A stretch of DNA of 24,845 nucleotides from positions 1 to 24,845 of IMG/VR virus record IMGVR_UViG_3300028490_000029; one strand, given 5' to 3'. This document shows positions 3,349 through 24,845 of the stretch, one piece after another. This stretch comes from a virus. The notes under the pieces are model-generated. The model saw only the letters and a program-made list of their open reading frames with translations, searched no databases and was not told the origin of the DNA. Position 1 is the stretch's first letter, and each line of letters starts with the position of its first letter. The position numbers and the translations under genes are program-made.

Positions 3349-4500
3349 ATGAAAATAGTAAATATTAGAACAGTAGACCTGGTTCCTTTTGAGAACAATT
3401 CCAGGACACACGATCTGGAGCAGATACTAAAAATTGTAGATAGCATTAATGAGTTTGGTTTTACAAACCCTATTTTGATAGATTCAAATAATGGCATTAT
3501 TGCAGGACATGGGAGAGTCCTGGCCGCAACCAGGTTGGAACTAGAAAAGGTTCCATGTATTGTGCTTCCTAACCTATCCCCAGAGCAAAAGAGAGCTTAT
3601 GTCATTGCAGACAATAGGCTAGCTCTTGATGCCGGGTGGGATGAGTCTATCCTAGCATATGAACTAAAGGCTCTTATGGATTTGGACTACTCAGTAGAGC
3701 TTACTGGGTTTGATTTTGATGAGATAGACAAACTGCTAGAAAATGTTCTGGGGGAAGATGATCCAACCCCAGTAGAGGAGACAGGAGAAGTAGATGAGCC
3801 GGAATACATAGTAATATCAAAAGGGGACATAATAGAACTTGAAGGACATAGGCTCTTATGTGGTGACAGTTCAGATATCGAGTCCATAGAAAAGCTAACA
3901 GAAGGGGGAAATGTGAACCTAGTTTTGGCCTCCCCTGCAAAAGATCCTGGAGATATTTCAGATGCTATATCCCAGAGCAGAAGATGGGTTGAAACATCCA
4001 TTGGACTGCTAGGATCTGGAGGGGTCTGGTTTTGTTGGGGGAGTGACTCTTTTGTACTTAGTCTGTATTCAGATATATTGTCTAATAAAAATAAGTTCCC
4101 AGGACTCTCTGTTTCTGGAATAGTAACCTGGGACGATGGCCTGGACGCTACCCCTCCAAAAGGTATAGTAATGGCTACAGGAGATGCAGTAGCACAACCA
4201 GAAAGCTTTATCTGGAGAGTCCCTGGGAAAGTAGGAGCAGATACCACAGAGAAGCCTCTGGAAATACTAAGCATGGCCATAGAAAGTAGTTCAGAGATGG
4301 GAGGTATTGTCTTTGATCCCTTCCTTGGATCTGGAGCCTCTTTGATTTCTGCAGACAGTTCTGGAAGGAAGTTGTATGGTATCGAGTCTAATCCAAAAAG
4401 AATGCAAATGGCTATCCAGAGGTGGTGCGACTTCACCCAGACAGAGGATATAAAAATAAATGGAAATGACGCTCTATGGAGCGAATATAAGGATAAGTAG
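3349..4500 (+). CDS. ParB-domain / DNA methyltransferase fusion, catalytic motif lost
   Basis: The N-terminal domain (residues 1-110) is ParB/Srx-like, with the nucleotide-pocket motif AGHGRVLAA at 52-60. The C-terminal domain (about 165-365) follows the beta-class adenine methyltransferase pattern: GHRLLCGDSSD, EKP, and the SAM-binding FDPFLGSGASLISA (motif I) followed by GRKLYGIESNPKR. The catalytic motif IV, normally (D/N)PPY in a context such as 'TDPPYG', is replaced by LVLASPAKDP at 191-200. The SAM site therefore looks intact but the amino-methyl transfer site does not. Fusions of this kind are often found between terminase subunits in phages. The protein may be an inactive DNA- or SAM-binding relic, or have a changed activity. 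Its stop codon overlaps the GTG start of TerL. Confidence 0.8.
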   Translation: MKIVNIRTVDLVPFENNSRTHDLEQILKIVDSINEFGFTNPILIDSNNGIIAGHGRVLAATRLELEKVPCIVLPNLSPEQKRAYVIADNRLALDAGWDESILAYELKALMDLDYSVELTGFDFDEIDKLLENVLGEDDPTPVEETGEVDEPEYIVISKGDIIELEGHRLLCGDSSDIESIEKLTEGGNVNLVLASPAKDPGDISDAISQSRRWVETSIGLLGSGGVWFCWGSDSFVLSLYSDILSNKNKFPGLSVSGIVTWDDGLDATPPKGIVMATGDAVAQPESFIWRVPGKVGADTTEKPLEILSMAIESSSEMGGIVFDPFLGSGASLISADSSGRKLYGIESNPKRMQMAIQRWCDFTQTEDIKINGNDALWSEYKDK

Positions 4501-6327: not shown

Positions 6328-6525
6328 ATGAGAAATGCAAAATCTATATGGGAGTGTCATATCACTATCCACTATTCCATAAAAGAAAAAATGAACTCAG
6401 TATTATTGAATATAGCCAGAGAAGAGAAGACAGCAAAATCAAGGGTAGTTCAAGATCTATTGGAGACTCACCCAAAGTATTTGAAGGTAAAAAAAGAGAT
6501 GGAAAAAGAGGGATACTTTATATAA
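6328..6525 (+). CDS. Small ribbon-helix-helix-like protein (65 aa)
   Basis: ATG 6328 is preceded by AAAGGA with five bases of spacing; an in-frame TTG at 6301 lies inside the end of TerL and is less likely. The sequence has an N-terminal strand (CHITIHYSI), a helix (EKMNSVLLNIAREEK) and a second helix after a turn (TAKSRVVQDLLE), the layout of CopG/Arc-type ribbon-helix-helix DNA-binding proteins. Its TAA stop is the first three bases of the 275-bp repeated element, so regulation of that element by this protein is an attractive but untested idea. Confidence 0.6.
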   Translation: MRNAKSIWECHITIHYSIKEKMNSVLLNIAREEKTAKSRVVQDLLETHPKYLKVKKEMEKEGYFI

Positions 6526-6526
6526 G

Positions 6527-6535
6527 TTATTCACA
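6527..6535 (+). promoter_or_regulatory. DnaA-box-like nonamer TTATTCACA (copy 1, left end)
   Basis: TTATTCACA fits the bacterial DnaA box consensus TTATNCACA exactly. It is oriented opposite to the three boxes at the right end of the same element. Confidence 0.5.
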
Positions 6536-6548
6536 CAAAAGGTAAAAA

Positions 6549-6590
6549 ATGGGGAAAAAGTGGAAAATCGCGAAACGATACACTCCCCAT
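6549..6590 (+). other. Nested stem-loop inside repeat element (copy 1)
   Basis: ATGGGGA (6549-6555) can pair with TCCCCAT (6584-6590), GTG (6560-6562) with CAC (6581-6583), and ATCG (6567-6570) with CGAT (6576-6579) around a CGAAA loop. This gives one long arm with bulges. No T tract follows, so it is not a simple terminator; it could be a structured RNA leader or a protein site. Confidence 0.55.
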
Positions 6591-6717
6591 ACCATTGTAT
6601 TACTGCAACAGTTTTGTCCAAAATGGCCACATTCTGTGCTTTTAAACAGTATAAAAAAATGAAAGTTGTAAAAAAGGTGTAAAATCGGATGTTTTTGCCT
6701 ACTCACAAAAAACAGCA

Positions 6718-6750
6718 TGTGAATAACATGTGAATAACTTATGTGAATAA
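6718..6750 (-). promoter_or_regulatory. Three DnaA-box-like nonamers (copy 1, right end)
   Basis: TGTGAATAA occurs at 6718-6726, 6729-6737 and 6742-6750, the reverse complement of TTATTCACA, with 11- and 13-bp spacing. Clustering of exact consensus nonamers is unlike random AT-rich sequence. Confidence 0.55.
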
Positions 6751-6824
6751 CTTTCCTTAGTCTACTTAAATAAAACAACCAAAGATGTAAAAATACAGGT
6801 AATATAACCTATAAAGGCAAAAAT

Positions 6825-12818: not shown

Positions 12819-15800
12819 ATGACAAATAATGAAATAGACATCAAAATAAATGCTGAACTTGGGGACACAAATAAGCAGATAGCCAAACTCACAAAAGAAC
12901 TTGAAAAGCTACAGAAAAAAGCAAATACTGGGTCTCTGGATAAGACTCAAAAAGGGTTTGATAAGACCTCACAATCTGCAGGGAAACTCACAAAAAGCCT
13001 AACAGCAATGGCTACTGCATATGTATCCCTTACTGGGATGAAAGAACTCGTAAGGATTACTGCAGAGGTGGAAGATGGGTTTATTGGAGTCGCTAAAACT
13101 ACAGGACTTGTGGGGGATGACTTTGAAAGGCTAAAAGAGGGTATTAATGATCTAAGTACTGAACTGGCAGGGATGGATCACTCTGAATTACAGGCCATAG
13201 CAGAGAGTGCAGGACAGTTAGGAATAGAGGGGACAGAGAATATCCTGGCCTTTACTGAGGTTATAGCAAAAGTTGCTTCCACTACAGATCTTTCTGCAGA
13301 GGAAGCTTCCCTGGGAATGCAGAAACTGGCAAACTCATTCAAACTCCCAGGAGAACAAGTAGAAAACTTAGCCTCTGCCATGAATGAACTATCAAATACA
13401 ACCACTGCCACAGTGGGGGAAATAGTTAACTACTCACAGAGAATGGCGGGAGCGGCCTCCTCTTTTGGACTGTCTACACAGGAAGTCCTGGGGTTTGCAT
13501 CAACCTTTACAGACCTTGGTATAAATGCAGAAATAGGGGCTACAGCATTCAGTAAGATACTAGCAAAAATGACAACAGACACAGCACAATTTGCAGAATT
13601 TGTTGGGTTATCTATGTCTGAATTTAAAGACATAATAGACACAGAGCCAGTAGAGGCCATAGAGCTTCTGGCTAAGAAATTTGGAGAGCTAGACAAATAT
13701 ACGGGGAACCAACTTTTAGAGGACTGGAAGCTATCTGGGATAGGTGTAGCTACGGTAATGAGGAAGCTATCTACAAACACTGAACTTTTATCTAAAAACA
13801 TAGACATATCAAACAAGGCCTGGACAGAAAACGTATCGATCCAGAATGAGTACGAAACTGCATCAAAAGGCCTAAATGCGCAACTAACAAAAATGAAAAA
13901 CGGGGTAATTGTACTGGTCTCTAAACTTGGAGGGCCTTTATTGGATGCCCTTAAAGATGTAGTGGACGGAACTATGTCCTGGTATGAATCTCTATCAGAA
14001 GAAGATATCTCTAAAATGACAACGGGGATTCAAGATCTAATAGACGGGTTTACAGACCTTGGAAAAACCCTGGCTACAGTATATGACTGGACATGGCCGG
14101 ATTCATTGACTATGGATGGAGCAGAAGGGTCTGGGGTACTTTCCTTCCTTAACCTCGTAATTAAGAGCTTAGGCGACATTAGCAAAATGAATGGGAAAAT
14201 GTTCGATGTACTTACTCTCTCTGCAGATATAGAGGATGCCACAGAGAAAACGGATACCTTTATTGAAAGCTTAAAAAACCTATCCATAGAGTCTCTTAGT
14301 TATGATGGTGATCTATCTAAGTTGACTAAAGCATATAACGAGAACAAGGAATCGCTAACAGGACTCCTGGTAGAGAATGAGAAACAGCAAAAATGGTTCA
14401 AAAAGCAGGGGGGCAGTGATGACGCCATTCTGGGTCTAAAGAGACTGGGAGAAGAGGAAGTAAAGCTAAAGCAGAAGATTATAGACATAACTAAAGCGTA
14501 TGAAGATAGAACAGCTTCTGCCAGTGATGGTGCTAAAAAGTCCCTAGAGGCAGAGAAAAAATACAATGAAAGTATAAAAGCCTTCTCTGGCAATAATCTA
14601 GACAAATTAAAAGAGAGTAACGACAAAAGAATATCTATGGCAGAAGAGACTCTTGGAAAGCTAAAGTCTGGAGAAGAGAAGTACGCAAGAGAAATAGCTA
14701 AAATACAGGAAGATCTAGCTAAAAAAATAGCAGATATAGATAAGGAACGCGCAAACAAAGTATACTCCCTAGAAAATGAAAAAAAAGATGTAGAGTATGG
14801 ATCATTGGATGAATATGACGCCTACATAAAAAAACAAAGAGATGCAGAAGTTGAACTGGTAAGAGCAAAAGAGGCGTTAAGAAAAGAAGACCTTGCAAAG
14901 TTTGAAACACACATAGCAAGATATAAGTCCCTGGTAACATCTGCAGGATCTAAGGCCATAGAAACAGATGGCAAAATTAGGATAAGTGCAGATAAAGTAA
15001 AGACCTCTAAAATAGACGGTATTACTAAAACACAGGAGGCCTGGGAATCATATTATGATGTAAAAGAGAGAATGGCCACTGACTCTGCAAACAAGGAGGC
15101 CGCAACAGCAGAAGCCTCTTTGAAAAACACCAAAGCACAGATAGATGCACAGATCATATTTCTAGAGGAACTAGGGAAGTTGTACAGCAAACTGTCTGGG
15201 GAAAATATAACCCCAGACGTATCTGGTCTCCAGAAGCTATCTGAGAGTATAGACACAGCAGAAGCAAAGGCTAAAAATCTATCTGAGACTCCTCTAAAAG
15301 TATCTGTTAATACTGCAGAGATAGAGGATGCAAAGTCCTATATAAGTAACCTTGACAATATAGCCACAAATGGTATAACCCTGGACATGTACGCGGATAT
15401 CTCGGATGCCAAAAAAGAGGCAGATCAGATGGTGGAATATTATAATAATATTGATCCAACATCCACCCTCAAAATCGATCCCAGGGAAGCAAAAGAGGGG
15501 ATTGATACCTTTGTTAAGGAAACTGGTAGAGTCCCGGCCATAGTCACAGTAGAGGCCATAGTTAAGGACTTATACGAGAAGATGGAAAAGGCTAGACAGG
15601 ATTCTGCAGTACCTATAGATCAAGTTGTTATTTTTGAAGCAAGAGTAGAGGATCTGAACGCGCAAATGTCAAAACTTGAAGAGCCTATTCATGTGATGGT
15701 AAATATAGAATCTAATATAGATGCTGTAAAGGTTTCACTGGAAGAGCTTAAGATCCCTATATCTACAAACTATCTCTTGACATATAATTTGGATGAACTA

Positions 15801-16448
15801 ATCTCACAGAAGCAGATACTATCGGAGCCTATATCATCAACATTTACAATAGTTGATAATTATGGTGAGATAGAGGGAGACAAAAAGAAGTTAGAGGCGC
15901 CTACTGGATCAAAGCATACAATAAAAGACAATTCTAAGAAGGTTTCTGGGGACATTGATAAGCTAAAGACAGCTACCACTTCAACCCACTCCATAAAAGT
16001 AAATGACTCGGATGCTGTATCCTCTATCAACTCACTAAAGCAACCTACATCAAGTATACACACGGTCACGGTTCAAACAGTAGAGGCCTCTTCAAATGGA
16101 GGGCTTATCTCACAGAAGCTCGCAGGAGGTGGTACATTTACTGGATCTGGGTCGGTGCCTGGGTATGATGCTACAGACTCAGACAAAGTAAATGCCAGAT
16201 TGACAGGTGGTGAGTTTGTGATAAAAAGACAGGCTGTAGATAAATATGGAGTAAACATGCTAAAATCAATAAACGGCATGGAGACTCCAAAGTTTTCAAG
16301 TGGTGGCAAAGTAGGAGATGTTATGCAAAACACAGAAGAGATGAGTGTAGTAAATATCAGTATAGGTGGTAAAACTTTCCAGACAATTACAGGGAAAGAA
16401 ATAGCTGAGAAATTAGCCAGACACATAAACGAAGAGGAGGGGATGTAA
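12819..16448 (+). CDS. Tape measure protein
   Basis: This 1209-residue protein sets tail length and occupies the tail lumen; at roughly 0.15 nm per residue the tail would be about 180 nm (estimate from the general rule). Residues about 1-60 are a coiled coil (DTNKQIAKLTKELEKLQKKA). Residues about 75-400 match the TP901-type tape measure core (ITAEVEDGFIGVAKTTGL, SAGQLGIEG, MQKLANSFKLP, GEIVNYSQRMAG, FASTFTDLGINAEIG). Then come long charged helices (about 580-720). A run of 24-residue repeats occupies about 822-1086. The Gly-rich end has GGEFVIKRQAVDKYG and METPKFSSGG, typical of tape measures. No lytic or peptidase domain was seen. It is adjacent to the chaperones. Confidence 0.92.
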   Translation: MTNNEIDIKINAELGDTNKQIAKLTKELEKLQKKANTGSLDKTQKGFDKTSQSAGKLTKSLTAMATAYVSLTGMKELVRITAEVEDGFIGVAKTTGLVGDDFERLKEGINDLSTELAGMDHSELQAIAESAGQLGIEGTENILAFTEVIAKVASTTDLSAEEASLGMQKLANSFKLPGEQVENLASAMNELSNTTTATVGEIVNYSQRMAGAASSFGLSTQEVLGFASTFTDLGINAEIGATAFSKILAKMTTDTAQFAEFVGLSMSEFKDIIDTEPVEAIELLAKKFGELDKYTGNQLLEDWKLSGIGVATVMRKLSTNTELLSKNIDISNKAWTENVSIQNEYETASKGLNAQLTKMKNGVIVLVSKLGGPLLDALKDVVDGTMSWYESLSEEDISKMTTGIQDLIDGFTDLGKTLATVYDWTWPDSLTMDGAEGSGVLSFLNLVIKSLGDISKMNGKMFDVLTLSADIEDATEKTDTFIESLKNLSIESLSYDGDLSKLTKAYNENKESLTGLLVENEKQQKWFKKQGGSDDAILGLKRLGEEEVKLKQKIIDITKAYEDRTASASDGAKKSLEAEKKYNESIKAFSGNNLDKLKESNDKRISMAEETLGKLKSGEEKYAREIAKIQEDLAKKIADIDKERANKVYSLENEKKDVEYGSLDEYDAYIKKQRDAEVELVRAKEALRKEDLAKFETHIARYKSLVTSAGSKAIETDGKIRISADKVKTSKIDGITKTQEAWESYYDVKERMATDSANKEAATAEASLKNTKAQIDAQIIFLEELGKLYSKLSGENITPDVSGLQKLSESIDTAEAKAKNLSETPLKVSVNTAEIEDAKSYISNLDNIATNGITLDMYADISDAKKEADQMVEYYNNIDPTSTLKIDPREAKEGIDTFVKETGRVPAIVTVEAIVKDLYEKMEKARQDSAVPIDQVVIFEARVEDLNAQMSKLEEPIHVMVNIESNIDAVKVSLEELKIPISTNYLLTYNLDELISQKQILSEPISSTFTIVDNYGEIEGDKKKLEAPTGSKHTIKDNSKKVSGDIDKLKTATTSTHSIKVNDSDAVSSINSLKQPTSSIHTVTVQTVEASSNGGLISQKLAGGGTFTGSGSVPGYDATDSDKVNARLTGGEFVIKRQAVDKYGVNMLKSINGMETPKFSSGGKVGDVMQNTEEMSVVNISIGGKTFQTITGKEIAEKLARHINEEEGM
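15606..16075 (+). repeat. 24-residue tandem repeats in the tape measure C-terminus
   Basis: From codon 930, six contiguous units of exactly 24 codons and a partial seventh follow each other. Each opens with a Pro near position 3 (for example SEPISSTFTIVD, EAPTGSKHTIKD, KTATTSTHSIKV) and closes with a helix ending in Leu (DIDKL, SINSL, SLEEL). Diverged earlier units precede them, including one at codon 822 (SETPLKVSVNT). The pattern suggests a strand-helix repeat. DNA identity between units is low, so the repeats are old. Confidence 0.75.
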
Positions 16449-16832: not shown

Positions 16833-17441
16833 ATGGCACTATTAACTTTTTACAAATCAACTACAGAAGATGGGGGAGCAAAAGGACAACAGCTCACAAA
16901 TGGAGGGGTAGATGATCTATACCCTGCTATAGACTCCCAGGATAGACTTAATGGGAAAGTGATCCATAGGAAGATATGGTATCAAACAGACGCCTCTTCT
17001 GTCATCATGTGTACTCTTTCAAACCAGGGACAGTACAACTCATGTTTCTTCAAAACTGCATCTGGAGGAAATGATGTGGTAGGGAGCATAACAGGAAATG
17101 AGGATAGATTCGGGGCATTAGCTATTGTCTCAAATGGAACAGATTCAGTAGTTGTTACTAATAATAAAAAATGGACTTTGGCTAGAGTTGGGGATAAAGC
17201 TCACATTGGAAATGATGTTGTAGGGATCACTGCAATATCTGATAATGGGAATGGAACATCAAACATAACATTTTCCCCTGCTATCCCAGTAGCTATCCAT
17301 GACGGTACTTTTTTTGCCACAGTAATAGAAGAGAATTTCACTGCAGGAACAGCAGTCCCATTCTGGACAGAAATTGATATCCCTGCTCTCTCTTCAATCT
17401 CATCAAACAGAGACAATCATTCATTTATGTCTCTATATTAA
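16833..17441 (+). CDS. Unknown virion-like protein (202 aa)
   Basis: AAGGA precedes ATG 16833. The beta-rich protein has many Asn, Gly, Ser and Thr residues (KSTTEDGGAKGQQLTNGG, NVVGSITGNEDRFG-like segments, VVTNNKKWTLARVGDKAHIG), the composition of exposed structural proteins. The segment KIWYQTDASSVIMCTLSNQG may form a central sheet. It lies in the tail-tip operon. Function cannot be named; a tail-tip or accessory structural role is likely from context. Confidence 0.6.
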   Translation: MALLTFYKSTTEDGGAKGQQLTNGGVDDLYPAIDSQDRLNGKVIHRKIWYQTDASSVIMCTLSNQGQYNSCFFKTASGGNDVVGSITGNEDRFGALAIVSNGTDSVVVTNNKKWTLARVGDKAHIGNDVVGITAISDNGNGTSNITFSPAIPVAIHDGTFFATVIEENFTAGTAVPFWTEIDIPALSSISSNRDNHSFMSLY

Positions 17442-19862: not shown

Positions 19863-21263
19863 ATGGGATGTGAATACTCACTATCAGTAGAGTCTGGATG
19901 CTCTTATGAGTTAGAGGTACTAAGCAAGGAAGGATGTACATACTCTCTTGAAGTAGACAGAGGACAAAACCCACCTACTATACCTCCAGGGGAAGTTCCC
20001 ATAATACAATTTGGCTTTACTGAGGTTAAAGATGTAGTAGCAATGGGGGATACTCATATTTGTATCTTAGCAATGTATAGACCAGACCTTATTACTCCTC
20101 CCTATGGAGTAGTGGCAAAGCTAGAATATGTCTCAGACATAATGTTCGGAATGGGAATAGATAGAGTAGTTCACCTGGACGCTATTATAAAACTATCAGA
20201 TCACGGGGCAGATTATGATTACATGGATGGGGTTGAGGTAGCAGAAGCAGGAGACACAAATACTATTATAGCCTTCACATCAAGTTATACCCATTATTAT
20301 TTTGACGGAGAAATAGACTATAAAGGGGATATGAATAAGCTGTATGAGTACCCTTTCCAGGGAAATAACGATACCCCATTTTTTGGATCAACATCATTCC
20401 AGAGTTCAGTAGATGATACTCCTACCCCTATATACATAAAAGACAAAGAGGAGGAGATAAACACCTATGTATCTCCCTCTGATCCAGAGTCTTGGGATGG
20501 AAACTCTTACTCATATGATCTAAAGTCTGGATCCAAAGATGGGTATTACAGCGAAGATCTAGAAGTTCAAACCACAGTCCGGCTATCGGATGGAGCTTCT
20601 GGCCCCTCTGAATACAGCAGGATGCATAGAAGAGAGACCGGGATAATATCTGATAACCTATGTTGCCCCATAAATGAAGTTTGCGACATTACAGACTGTA
20701 CATATTCTACAGTTTGTGAGACTGACGATATAGGAACCAACTTTGAACCTCCCTGGAGTCCAACCTGTACCGGTGATACGTCATGGAGTGTAGCCAGAAG
20801 GGTAGACGCTACAGACTGGACAATAGTTGCCAGATCAGATGATGTGGCATTATATTTCAACTCCCAGTATGGATACTTATTTGGACTATATGAACCAGCA
20901 GAACTACAATGGGTAGAGCAGAATACACTTAAAAATGTATTAATACAAAACACCCCCAAAAATGAAGTTAACTCTATTCGGTATTTATGGAAAAAAGAAA
21001 TCCCAGTATTCAAAAGTATCCCTATCTATAAAGTTTGTCATAGTGTCTATAAATTGTCAAAATGGGGAGGGATCATTGGATGTTCTAATATGTCAAATGG
21101 TTCAGATTCCCTTTTCACGGTAGTAGATACAGATAAAGATATTCAGTACTATTCAAAAAATAGTCACGGTACAATATGCTATGAAATGTTTTATTATTGT
21201 GAGAATGGGAAGCTTAAGCAAAGTCTAATAAGTGACATGTCTGGATCTCCAACATGCGCCTAA
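19863..21263 (+). CDS. Orphan Cys-rich structural protein (466 aa)
   Basis: Not recognised. The N-terminus contains three short similar strands (CEYSLSVESG, CSYELEVLSKEG, CTYSLEVDRG), a Pro-rich hinge (NPPTIPPGEVP), then a beta-rich body with many Tyr, Asp and Ser. A Cys cluster begins at residues 267-268 (LCCPINEVCDITDCTYSTVC) and more Cys follow to the end (GCSN, ICYEMFYYCENG, TCA). No signal peptide or membrane segment was seen. It lies in the tail-tip region, so a fibre, tip or receptor-binding protein is plausible. Its TAA stop is the first codon of the second 275-bp element. A clear ribosome binding site is missing, so translation may depend on the small gene before it. Confidence 0.65.
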   Translation: MGCEYSLSVESGCSYELEVLSKEGCTYSLEVDRGQNPPTIPPGEVPIIQFGFTEVKDVVAMGDTHICILAMYRPDLITPPYGVVAKLEYVSDIMFGMGIDRVVHLDAIIKLSDHGADYDYMDGVEVAEAGDTNTIIAFTSSYTHYYFDGEIDYKGDMNKLYEYPFQGNNDTPFFGSTSFQSSVDDTPTPIYIKDKEEEINTYVSPSDPESWDGNSYSYDLKSGSKDGYYSEDLEVQTTVRLSDGASGPSEYSRMHRRETGIISDNLCCPINEVCDITDCTYSTVCETDDIGTNFEPPWSPTCTGDTSWSVARRVDATDWTIVARSDDVALYFNSQYGYLFGLYEPAELQWVEQNTLKNVLIQNTPKNEVNSIRYLWKKEIPVFKSIPIYKVCHSVYKLSKWGGIIGCSNMSNGSDSLFTVVDTDKDIQYYSKNSHGTICYEMFYYCENGKLKQSLISDMSGSPTCA

Positions 21264-21264
21264 G

Positions 21265-21273
21265 TTATTCACA
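21265..21273 (+). promoter_or_regulatory. DnaA-box-like nonamer TTATTCACA (copy 2, left end)
   Basis: Exact match to TTATNCACA, the counterpart of the site at 6527. Confidence 0.5.
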
Positions 21274-21286
21274 CAAAAGGTAAAAA

Positions 21287-21328
21287 ATGGGGAAAAAGTG
21301 GAAAATCGCGAAACGATACACTCCCCAT
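21287..21328 (+). other. Nested stem-loop inside repeat element (copy 2)
   Basis: Same stem arrangement as in copy 1 (ATGGGGA/TCCCCAT, GTG/CAC, ATCG/CGAT). Confidence 0.55.
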
Positions 21329-21455
21329 ACCATTGTATTACTGCAACAGTTTTGTCCAAAATGGCCACATTCTGTGCTTTTAAACAGTATAAAAAAATGA
21401 AAGTTGTAAAAAAGGTGTAAAATCGGATGTTTTTGCCTACTCACAAAAAACAGCA

Positions 21456-21488
21456 TGTGAATAACATGTGAATAACTTATGTGAATAA
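21456..21488 (-). promoter_or_regulatory. Three DnaA-box-like nonamers (copy 2, right end)
   Basis: TGTGAATAA at 21456, 21467 and 21480, opposite in orientation to the left-end box. Confidence 0.55.
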
Positions 21489-21574
21489 CTTTCCTTAGTC
21501 TACTTAAATAAAACAACCAAAGATGTAAAAATACAAGAATAAACAAAAAAAATAACAATAAAAAAGGGGCCACA

Positions 21575-21850
21575 ATGCCTGCATCAATTACTGGAAAAAC
21601 ACAAAACTGGTTTACACCTAACCCATTAATGTCTAAAACTATCACAGCAGGAGAAAGCATAAAGGTATCTAAGATATCTGCTATTTTTTGTACGGATGCC
21701 TCTGGAACTGGGATAGATGTAAAGGTAACTTTGCAAGGTTTTGGAACACCTTTCCCAATTCCTGCAGGAACCTCTCTTGGAATAGATTCTGCAGTAGATG
21801 AGATCTCAATAGATACTGCATGTACTCTTTTTGCAATGGGTGGAAAATAA
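21575..21850 (+). CDS. Small beta-rich virion-like protein (91 aa)
   Basis: The first gene after the second repeat element; an AAAAAAGGGG-type ribosome binding site lies before ATG 21575. The protein contains strands SKTITAGESIKVSKISAIFC, GIDVKVTLQGFGTPFPI and SIDTACTLFAMGG, resembling a single jelly-roll or Ig-like domain with no signal peptide. Its place just before the giant repeat gene suggests a structural accessory, such as a fibre connector. Function unknown. Confidence 0.6.
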   Translation: MPASITGKTQNWFTPNPLMSKTITAGESIKVSKISAIFCTDASGTGIDVKVTLQGFGTPFPIPAGTSLGIDSAVDEISIDTACTLFAMGGK

Positions 21851-21854
21851 AGCA

Positions 21855-24845
21855 ATGGCTAATATCCTAAAGCCACTAATCCCGCTATTCCCAAACTCCC
21901 CTTCTGGGAGCAGTAAATCATCCCCTTCTCCTATCCCAACAACTCCTCCGAAAGTAATATCCTCTGTAATACTTAACGACAAGAGAGACGGTATACTTGT
22001 CACATGGGACATGAATATGCAGGCTATTGGGGATATACATGACTGGATTAATATAAAAATAAATAGTAATTTCGAGGGTTCTGTTATTGCAGTAACCGTA
22101 AACCCTAGTAATAGGAAGCAGACAGCCTTGGTTCTGGATCGTGAGATATTATATGGGGATGCAGTAGAGTGGATTTATTCCGACGGATCTCTTATTGGTA
22201 GTATAAGAGGAGAGAATGGAATAGAGGCACTCCCTGGGACATATTCTACTGACGTTCAAATACTTCCAGATAAATTTACTGTGGCCATGAGCCAGACAGG
22301 GCAAACTAATCCAACTATGTTTACTGGAGTTAATGCTGATATCCCTTATGATCCAGAAACCTCTCCTACCTGTACAATAAGACCTCCAGGAGAGGGGATC
22401 ACAGTAGGAAGTGTCCTTATAGAGACCAACGATGAGATCACTGGAGTACACTGGAAAGGAAATAATGACATTACTCACATTTATATGTTAAATGCAGAAA
22501 CAGTAACACACTTTGAAAGTGGGAATGGTGCAAACCCAGGATCTGCCCCAACCTGGGCTATCTGTGATAACTGTCTTGAATTGCGAGAGTTCTCATGTGC
22601 AAATGTCTCCCCTGGTATGAAAAGTATTGCCCATGCATGGAAAGGATGTAGAAACCTAACCAGTTTTAACACAGGGTTCCTATCTCATGTAACAGAGGCC
22701 TATAGAGCATGGTATGAGTGCAGGAGGATTGTAGCGTTCAATGCCTCTGGACTCTCTTCCTTGATCTCTGCAGAGGATACCTGGTATGGTAACTTCTATC
22801 TGGAGTCTTTTGATGCCTCTGCAATGACATCATTAGTTATGGCGCAATGGACATGGCAAAACTGTATAGTTATGAAATCTTTTGACGCTTCTGGACTAAC
22901 CTCTGTAACAAATGCTTTTAAGGCGTGGTATGGATGTGTAGAACTCCTAGACTTTGACACTTCTGCGCTGACTAAGGTAACAGACGTCTCTTCTAGTTGG
23001 TTTAGATGCCCCGCATTAAAGTCCTTCAATGCCTCTGGACTAACCTCTATAACAAAAATAGCAAATTCATGGGATGGATGTCATGAACTTATCTGTATCG
23101 GTGGGACTCTTGATACTACATCATGTACAGTCAAGACAAAAGCATTCTTTGAGTGTAATAAACTAACCTCTCCAGATGCATCAACACAAACACAATTAGT
23201 ATCTACAGCAGGACTCTCCTGGACAAACCCAGGGCAGTGTCCCCCTGCACAAAAGAAGTTCAAATCAATAGTCTTTGCCTCTAACCAGGCGGATGCTGTA
23301 CCTACTATGTTCTCTGGAGTAAGTGCAGATGTATCGGTTGATCCTGTCACTACTCCCACAATTTCAATAGCAGATAATGGGGATGGATCTTGGACAGTAG
23401 AGACAGATGATGAGATCACTGGAGTACACTGGATGGGTAAAAACAGTGTTACTAAGATCAACATAGTAAATGCAGAAACAGTGACACACTTTGAAGATTC
23501 AAATATAGGTAATGTTACCCTATGGACTGTATGTATAAACCTACCTTTATTAACTGATTTTGAGTGTAGTAACCTGTCTTCTGAAATGAAGAGTATTTCG
23601 ATGGGATGGAAAAATTGTCCTGCCCTGGAGACATTCTCTATAAAAGGCAGTAATGGTATTATCCAGGCTAAATCGGCCTGGGAAGACTGTATCGGATTAA
23701 CATCATTCGATGCTTCTGCTCTTGGATCTCTAGTGATGGCAGAGAAGGCATGGACTAACTGTAAAGAGTTAACATCATTCGATGCTTCTGCCCTAACCTC
23801 ATTAGTAAATGTAAAAGAAGCATGGATGTCTAACTTCAAGATGGTATCATTCGATGCTTCTGGATTAACCTCCGTAACTCATGCAGACAGCGCATGGAAA
23901 TTCTCCGGGCTTCTATCTTTTGATGCATCCACTATGTCATCATTGCTTATAGCAGTAGATTCCTGGCGCAGTTGTGAGGACATAACATCATTTGATGCTT
24001 CTGGCCTAACTTCACTGGAGAATGCTACCGAATCTTGGTTCGGATGTACAGCATTAACATCATTCGATGCTTCTGGATTAACCTCTGTGACTCATGCAGA
24101 TAGAGCATGGGATGGGTGTATAAAAATGACATCATTCAATGCCTCTGGGTTAACCTCCGTAGAGCATGCATATAGATCGTGGCATGAATGTAAGGCACTA
24201 ATATCATTTGATACCTCTGCATTAACTTTATTAACCTCAGTGGCAGAGACATGGACTCACTGTGATTCACTAACATCATTCGATACCTCTGGTTTAATAC
24301 TGGTAGTAGATGCAGTTTCTGCCTGGTCTTGGTGCGGATCGTTAACATCATTCGATGCCTCTGGATTAAGTGAAGTGGTAAACGTAAAAACTGCCTGGTA
24401 TAACTGCCTGGAACTCATAGACTTTGACACTTCTGCTCTGACTAAGGCTGAGGACATAAATAGCTCATGGGAAGGGTGTACAAAGATGACATCATTCAAT
24501 GCTTCTGGTTTAACTTCCATAAAATCTATGTCCCGTTCTTGGTACAAATGTCATGAACTTATCTGTATCGGTGGGACTCTTGATACTACATCATGTACAG
24601 ACAAGACAAAAGCATTCTTTGAGTGTAATAAACTAACCTCTCCAGATGCATCAACACAAGCACAATTAGTATCTACAGCAGGACTCTCCTGGACAAACCC
24701 AGGGCAGTGTCCTTCTTTACAAAAGAAGTTCAAATCAATAGTCTTTGCCTCTAACCAGGCGGATGCTGTACCTACTATGTTCTCTGGAGTAAGTGCAGAT
24801 GTATCGGTTGATCCTGTCACTACTCCCACAATTTCAATAGCAGAT
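21855..24845 (+). CDS. Giant modular repeat protein, BspA/DUF285-like (3' end outside window)
   Basis: A single frame runs without a stop from ATG 21855 to the window edge: 997 codons. Residues 1-30 are Pro/Ser-rich (PLIPLFPNSPSGSSKSS); about 35-135 is a fibronectin-like or other beta domain (VILNDKRDGILVTWDMNMQA). Then two modules and the start of a third follow. Each module has a head (TMFTGV or TMFSGV, DEITGVHW, NAETVTHFE), a run of 24-residue units of the form SFDASGLTSV-x6-AW-x2-C-x2-L, and a cap (ICIGGTLDTTSCT, KTKAFFECNKLTS, GLSWTNPGQCP). The units resemble BspA/DUF285 leucine-rich-like repeats in which the usual 'MF-x-x-C' is 'xW-x-x-C'. By position it is probably a tail fibre or host-contact adhesin; that role is inferred. 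Confidence 0.85.
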   Translation, partial: MANILKPLIPLFPNSPSGSSKSSPSPIPTTPPKVISSVILNDKRDGILVTWDMNMQAIGDIHDWINIKINSNFEGSVIAVTVNPSNRKQTALVLDREILYGDAVEWIYSDGSLIGSIRGENGIEALPGTYSTDVQILPDKFTVAMSQTGQTNPTMFTGVNADIPYDPETSPTCTIRPPGEGITVGSVLIETNDEITGVHWKGNNDITHIYMLNAETVTHFESGNGANPGSAPTWAICDNCLELREFSCANVSPGMKSIAHAWKGCRNLTSFNTGFLSHVTEAYRAWYECRRIVAFNASGLSSLISAEDTWYGNFYLESFDASAMTSLVMAQWTWQNCIVMKSFDASGLTSVTNAFKAWYGCVELLDFDTSALTKVTDVSSSWFRCPALKSFNASGLTSITKIANSWDGCHELICIGGTLDTTSCTVKTKAFFECNKLTSPDASTQTQLVSTAGLSWTNPGQCPPAQKKFKSIVFASNQADAVPTMFSGVSADVSVDPVTTPTISIADNGDGSWTVETDDEITGVHWMGKNSVTKINIVNAETVTHFEDSNIGNVTLWTVCINLPLLTDFECSNLSSEMKSISMGWKNCPALETFSIKGSNGIIQAKSAWEDCIGLTSFDASALGSLVMAEKAWTNCKELTSFDASALTSLVNVKEAWMSNFKMVSFDASGLTSVTHADSAWKFSGLLSFDASTMSSLLIAVDSWRSCEDITSFDASGLTSLENATESWFGCTALTSFDASGLTSVTHADRAWDGCIKMTSFNASGLTSVEHAYRSWHECKALISFDTSALTLLTSVAETWTHCDSLTSFDTSGLILVVDAVSAWSWCGSLTSFDASGLSEVVNVKTAWYNCLELIDFDTSALTKAEDINSSWEGCTKMTSFNASGLTSIKSMSRSWYKCHELICIGGTLDTTSCTDKTKAFFECNKLTSPDASTQAQLVSTAGLSWTNPGQCPSLQKKFKSIVFASNQADAVPTMFSGVSADVSVDPVTTPTISIAD
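22584..23090 (+). repeat. Repeat array of module 1 (7 units)
   Basis: Seven units, the first of 25 residues and six of 24 (169 codons in all). Conserved positions are F3, S6, L8, a Trp at 18 and Cys at 21 in most units. One unit (AEDTWYGNFYL) lacks the Cys. Confidence 0.85.
23081..23375 (+). repeat. Module junction repeat, copy A
   Basis: 295 bp that recur at 24551-24845 (1,470 bp or 490 codons later) with about six differences. It encodes the end of one module (cap) and the start of the next head. Confidence 0.9.
23553..24560 (+). repeat. Repeat array of module 2 (14 units)
   Basis: Fourteen units: the first 25 residues, one of 23 and twelve of 24 (336 codons). The DNA motif ATCATTCGATGCTTCTG and close variants recur at the start of many units. 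The first and the last two units match the first and last two of module 1, so the extra seven units were gained internally. Confidence 0.85.
24551..24845 (+). repeat. Module junction repeat, copy B
   Basis: Near-identical to 23081-23375; the differences seen change a Val to Asp, a Thr to Ala, and PPA to PSL. The match continues to the window edge, so a third module head follows and the true repeat is longer. Confidence 0.9.

Follow-up and report, generated by a model that had tools for sequence, protein, structure and literature searches.

LRRs of the BspA type are already known in phage proteins, both from the databases and from one paper, in which DUF285 giants were described in Vibrio phage pir03 (ORF200) and their function was left open (PMC7765460). 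PARCELs, the other named repeats to be considered here, are defined by a 25-residue unit encoded in palindromic DNA (PMC2996958). Besides, tail protein I of Klebsiella phage ST16-OXA48phi5.4 (L095:4756-7782) carries a C-terminal BspA-type LRR array fused to a P2 gpI-type domain, and is a natural example of an LRR solenoid on a baseplate/tail protein. A dozen K. pneumoniae phage records of a similar kind gave a match to it as well. In the literature, we found no description of Trp-type LRRs in phages; what is new here is this Trp-type variant as a coherent, widespread, and phage-enriched family that the libraries mostly miss, together with its multi-module form.

The window, i.e., the whole stretch of 24,845 nucleotides analyzed here, is the complete IMG/VR record of a virus (IMGVR_UViG_3300028490_000029) and consists of one contig. 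The LRR protein gene (21855-24845, plus strand) forms a single open frame of 997 codons, with its 3' end missing at the contig end, and the remaining two forward frames contain 94 and 83 stops over the same interval. This agrees with the preliminary description, in which the protein was given at least 997 residues in one frame reaching the window edge. The GC3 of the gene was 0.333, compared with 0.315-0.356 across the other phage genes, and both GC and GC3 were the same as in the rest of the contig. We consider the product most likely to be a virion-borne adhesin or receptor-binding protein. Elsewhere in the window, we observed a tandem array of a 16-bp unit (ATTAAGGCCATAAGGTC-like; 540-640), five copies of AAAATTCACG (10 bp) inside a small ORF (2624-2672), and a 383-aa protein with a ParB-like nuclease domain and then a DNA methyltransferase region (3349-4500), directly before the large terminase gene. 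The features of the LRR gene and of the region preceding it are listed in Table 1.

Table 1. Layout of the LRR gene and of the region preceding it in the window
Feature	Position	Strand	Remarks
466-aa Cys-containing protein, last tail-cluster gene before the LRR cassette	19863..21263	+	No family match; unlike the gene there in G003
275-bp element between tail cluster and LRR cassette	21261..21535	+	Second exact copy of 6523-6797
91-aa ORF directly upstream of LRR gene	21575..21850	+	Weak similarity (33%, E 1.5e-5) to a stretch between G003 tail genes (L100:8118-7927)
N-terminal region, residues ~1-140	21855..22274	+	Pro/Ser linker, then beta-rich stretch; from translation and low-confidence strands in full-length model
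Head domain, module 1	22275..22562	+	98-nt direct repeat with module 2 head
LRR array, module 1, 7 units of 24 residues	22593..23096	+	Full-length model pLDDT ~50-76
Cap, module 1, LICIGGTLDTTSC...WTNPGQCP	23085..23243	+	Similar cap in L014, L019, L049, L074, L079
Head domain, module 2, KSIVFASNQADAVPTMFSGV...VHWMGKNSVTKI	23244..23534	+	Similar head in L014
LRR array, module 2, 14 units	23562..24566	+	AlphaFold2 pLDDT mostly 93-99
Cap, module 2	24555..24713	+	Within 300-nt repeat with module 1
Start of third head	24714..24845	+	Last 127 bases = 23249-23375

The residue autocorrelation of the protein at lag 24 was 0.198, versus 0.067 ± 0.008 (maximum, 0.094) in 1,000 shuffles. Taking Trp as the anchor, we counted 21 units: module 1 (residues 262-406) holds 7 and module 2 (residues 585-896) holds 14, and the units of module 2 were spaced by 24 residues throughout, except for one spacing of 23. 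The unit consensus was F-D-A-S-G-L-T-S-V-x-x-A-x-x-A-W-x-x-C-x-x-L-T-S, in which Trp was present in all 21 units, as was Leu, Met, or Ile at position 22, while Phe1 occurred in 19/21 and Cys19 in 18/21; positions 10, 11, 13, 14, 17, 20, and 21 were variable. Both the invariant Trp and the periodicity thus bear out the 21 units of 24 residues reported earlier. The accompanying statement that each unit has one Cys slightly overstated its occurrence. The head is duplicated in part between modules 1 and 2 (direct repeat of 98 nt, 80%, family D5), and the cap region is duplicated between 23022-23321 and 24492-24791 (300 nt, 91% identical), in line with the earlier view that the modules are duplicated and that each has its own head and cap. 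A third head starts at about 24714, at the window edge. Where two units carry the same residue, the codons differ in 48% of pairs; therefore, the repeats have existed as coding sequence for a long time and are not a fresh DNA expansion, and simple expansion of repeat DNA was ruled out.

AlphaFold2 predicted a confident solenoid for module 2 (pLDDT 85.5; pTM 0.85), so that the modeling of one module suggested in the preliminary description came out in favor of a solenoid. The input was an alignment with 31 relatives in which whole-unit shifts are possible in places, and such shifts should matter little for the prediction of a solenoid. In this model, every unit contributes a single short strand, at S24-F1-D2, and near position 11 a bridge. 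The full-length prediction was weak outside module 2 (pLDDT 65.1), with low confidence in module 1 and the N terminus. The top PDB matches in Foldseek were BspA-like LRR proteins (4fs7, 4gt6, and 4h09), all with a probability of 1.00 and with low global TM-scores (TMq 0.27-0.39), and the sole phmmer match in PDB was TpLRR (6mlx; E 0.0086). Likewise, the best named viral model matches were "bacterial surface protein 26-residue repeat" and BspA-family or leucine-rich proteins of uncultured phages. On the model and the Foldseek matches, the protein is a predicted solenoid of LRR coils and belongs to the BspA-like LRR fold class. Phe1, Leu6, Val9, Ala12, Trp16, Cys19, and Leu22 most likely form its hydrophobic core, and the short S-F-D strand would line one face of the solenoid with a regular ladder.

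The Trp-type repeat was found in many other phages. A tblastn search against phage genomes matched Synechococcus phages S-CBWM1 and S-SKS1, an Ayaqvirus, Sphingomonas phage PAU, Butyrivibrio phage Arian, and unannotated Listeria-labelled contigs; the match in S-CBWM1 is annotated as a "putative tail protein." S-CBWM1, S-SKS1, and the Ayaqvirus carry Trp-type units, as does a Nonlabens phage (P12024S_10), and PAU (gp103) and Arian carry the classic MF..C type. Scanning IMG/VR with a Trp-type protein alignment yielded 300 matched stretches, of which 220 were relatives; the 79 loci kept and the window gave 62 non-redundant proteins, i.e., 61 besides that of the window. Their Trp spacings were exactly 24 in 725/866 cases, and across 728 Trp-type phage units Phe1 was conserved in 98%, Pro2 in 94%, Cys19 in 97%, and Leu22 in 93%. 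Given these 61 other proteins, the Synechococcus, Ayaqvirus, and Nonlabens phages, and the DUF285 giants of pir03, we cannot agree with the preliminary description that such a protein is unusual among phages. The largest multi-module relative that we saw is a phage protein of at least 2229 aa (L049:1-6687) with five caps, three WGDG heads, and 55 W..C units. Another long Trp-type LRR (~1800 aa; L093:4301-9724), on a contig binned as Candidatus Kuenenia, has a signal-peptide-like start and 27 W..C units.

In 84,980 prokaryote genomes, a narrower peptide pattern picked up two relatives; these come from Planctomycetota MAGs, and each has a signal-peptide-like start. Because this pattern is present in 29/61 of the viral relatives, the true prokaryote number is perhaps twice that found, and the rarity in prokaryotes is an estimate, not an absence. 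Thus, the Trp-type variant is strongly phage-enriched and not strictly phage-only. That the two bacterial relatives look secreted indicates that the fold also works on cell surfaces.

The large terminase protein (TerL) of the window was 51% identical to that of its nearest match, Sulfurimonas phage SNW-1, the annotation of which has a contractile-tail gene set. In the window, the portal, protease, major tail protein, and tape measure (12819-16448) genes were recognizable and no tail sheath gene was seen; hence, the phage is probably a siphovirus. The LRR gene closes the tail gene cluster, following the tape measure and downstream tail genes, so that the phage-encoded, tail-end location given in the preliminary description stands. 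A relative of the phage (G003; L099 and L100) is collinear through the tail genes (54% for 16833-17441 and 42% for the tape measure) and has no LRR gene; after the collinear stretch, it has a gene that does not resemble 19863-21263 of the window, followed by an integrase-like gene in the opposite orientation. The LRR gene is therefore accessory and occupies the distal, variable part of the tail cluster, which is the usual site of host-recognition genes.

The two copies of the 275-bp element upstream are both intergenic and each begin at the stop codon of the preceding gene, one before the head genes and the other before the LRR cassette. Each contains one TTATTCACA and three TGTGAATAA sites, which are DnaA-box-like and resemble the Helicobacter type; the repeat could serve in replication or regulation. 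Elsewhere in IMG/VR, no exact match to a 24-base piece of it was found.

The gene for the closest relative (L014) is flanked on one side by that for a 984-aa tail-fibre protein and on the other by a small ORF, after which comes an endolysin gene, and the gene upstream of the homologue in L026 and L059 is a tail fibre or spike. Within two genes, the neighbors of the relatives belong mostly to tail, head-tail, and head families, and DNA-metabolism families are matched less than among the distant genes of the same loci, at six or more genes' distance (counts only). Some relatives lie amid head, connector, or other genes and not fibres (S-SKS1 and Ayaqvirus), the one in S-SKS1 being located between the capsid assembly and prohead protease genes.

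Since the Trp variant occurs in dozens of phages and often near tail genes, the protein is probably a phage attachment protein of an unnamed kind. We favor, as fairly probable, a modular BspA-like LRR protein with head-coils-cap modules that is carried at the tail end of the virion and binds a ligand on the cell surface. The predicted solenoid, the position in the tail cluster, the fibre-adjacent relatives, and the analogous gpI fusion are all consistent with this, although some relatives are not near fibres, G003 lacks the gene, two bacterial relatives look secreted, and the TM-scores are low. The N terminus, which has no obvious signal peptide by eye, would dock on the tail end, and the modules would reach outward to the surface ligand, several of them perhaps giving reach or multivalency. 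Surface residues that are nearly the same from unit to unit and form a ladder might suit a repetitive ligand, e.g., a surface polysaccharide. More tentatively, and on balance with some doubt, the Trp-type LRR may be an unrecognized, phage-enriched receptor-binding scaffold across unrelated tailed phages, in which units and modules are gained or lost as in the variable LRR receptors of animals, here on tails.

The same position in the genome is open to another explanation, namely, that this is a lysogenic-conversion or "moron" gene whose product is displayed on, or secreted from, the host cell and stays outside the virion. In favor of this, a separate 275-bp intergenic element sets the LRR gene off at the structural cluster's outer edge, the collinear relative lacks the gene and has an integrase at about that place, BspA proteins are normally found on cell surfaces, and both Trp-type relatives from bacteria start with what resembles a signal peptide. 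However, no signal peptide is obvious by eye in the N terminus (MANILKPLIPLFPNSPSGSSKSSPSP), and the homologues in L014, L026, and L059 adjoin tail-fibre genes; we regard such a gene as unlikely.

As for family membership, scans of the window protein against Pfam, PHROG, and NCBIfam gave no match: it gave no match at the Pfam cut-offs of LRR_5 (PF13306) and DUF285 (PF03382), as seen in the HMM search that had been proposed in the preliminary description, and it matched neither TIGR02167 nor any known tail-fibre family in PHROG. At 1e-3, DUF285 matched 3/32 and LRR_5 4/32 of the Trp-type proteins or modules, and S-CBWM1 gp93 exceeded the PF03382 cut-off (26.7 versus 25). In hhalign runs with fixed-register unit blocks, the window units scored 99.7% (E 5.5e-26) against the Trp-type phage units and 40% (P 3e-4) against DUF285 units, the Trp-type units scored 82% (P 1e-5) against 24-residue DUF285 units, and column-permuted window profiles used as a control gave near zero against DUF285. 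Palindromic repeat DNA was absent from the window array (0 self-reverse-complement words at 9 nt versus 7.3 in codon shuffles) and from the L018 and L047 arrays, unlike those of PAU (9 nt) and Arian (11 nt), which exceeded all shuffles at one word length each.

These results bear on the proposal that the window protein simply belongs to the named DUF285/PARCEL family. The core pattern is indeed common to both (V-T-x-M-x-x-M-F-x-x-C versus V-T-x-A-x-x-A-W-x-x-C), confirming the earlier remark on a BspA/DUF285 likeness with Trp in place of Met-Phe, and gp93 and the few other DUF285 matches point the same way. Nevertheless, the window protein matches none of the three models, its unit has 24 residues and not the canonical 25 of PARCELs or 25-26, its coding DNA lacks palindromes, and its profile resembles that of DUF285 only weakly. 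Plain membership is thus quite improbable, and we rejected it. The protein has the 24-residue unit with W..C by which the phage Trp-type LRR is defined here, and we place it as a variant within the BspA-like fold class, outside DUF285/PARCEL.

The final 127 bases of the contig (24719-24845) are an exact copy of 23249-23375, and the preceding base differs. When a contig ends in an exact 127-base repeat, this is the mark of de Bruijn graph assembly with k=127. The right edge is therefore technical, and the contig end at 24845 is likely a k=127 assembly junction. The third head may belong to a genuine third module, or it may be the junction as copied by the assembler; more modules beyond the edge are plausible, since the 2229-residue frame of L049 holds five caps. 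Searching IMG/VR with exact DNA patterns taken from the head and from the 275-bp element retrieved no sibling contigs and did not extend the right edge, an IMG/VR peptide-pattern scan with the window protein as the sole query gave no match, and a scan with P0008 gave no relatives. The two exact repeats, of 275 bp and at the contig end, might raise the suspicion that the LRR gene was misjoined to the tail cluster or that the third module is a false copy. We consider this very unlikely, because the alternative pairing at the 275-bp repeat would split TerL from the portal, whereas L010 has TerL and then the portal, as in the contig; besides, the GC and GC3 of the LRR gene match the rest, and multi-module proteins such as L049 occur elsewhere. 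A chimera at the 275-bp repeat was accordingly rejected on L010 synteny and GC3.

A functional disulfide stack or metal-binding array, as suggested in the preliminary description, might be read from the retention of Cys19 in 18/21 window units and in nearly all Trp-type phage units, but it is extremely improbable and was rejected, since this Cys, which follows the invariant Trp at a distance of three residues, corresponds to the conserved Cys in the MF..C repeats of BspA/DUF285 proteins (so that neither disulfides nor metal are needed), is dispensable in 3 units, and has a precedent in the described cysteine ladder of the fold match InlJ. On these grounds, core packing is the best reading of the Cys ladder.

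In many environmental phages, a receptor-binding protein cannot be recognized, and the Trp-type family would give a handle on their choice of host. Only 3 or 4 of the 32 relatives match DUF285 or LRR_5, i.e., current libraries mostly miss the family, and W..C every 24 residues offers annotators a simple signature. With this family, the BspA-like adhesins also gain a phage branch.

Among the known systems closest to the window protein are its Trp-type relatives (S-CBWM1 gp93, S-SKS1, Ayaqvirus S45C18, Nonlabens P12024S_10, and the 61 IMG/VR proteins), which have the same 24-residue Trp/Cys unit. The usual Trp-type consensus, LTSFPLIDTSSGTNF..AW..C, has Pro2, whereas the window protein and L014 (IMGVR_UViG_3300028042_000007) have S-F-D/N-A/T-S-G-L-T-S. 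L014 is 42-46% identical and has the same head-LRR-cap order, with a head and cap that the two share; it has a single module (391 aa) and comes from a different phage type. The units of ST16-OXA48phi5.4 (F..C..L) lack Trp, unlike those of the window. InlJ (3bz5; Foldseek rank 26) is an LRR with a Cys ladder in a solved structure, with an internalin-type unit in a Listeria surface protein. DUF285/TIGR02167/PARCEL proteins (PF03382) share the V-T-x-h-x-x-h-F/W-x-x-C-x-x-L-T-S unit, giant arrays, and occurrence in phages, and differ in having Met-Phe for Trp, units of 25-26 residues, and palindromic coding DNA. Finally, the BspA-like LRR proteins (Pfam LRR_5; TpLRR 6mlx, BACOVA_04585 4fs7, and PcpA 4cp6) have in common with the window protein a short-coil solenoid and the C..L core pattern, whereas the window protein has Trp for the Phe of "AF/MF," a 24-residue unit, and no Pfam match, and is phage-encoded with its own head and cap.
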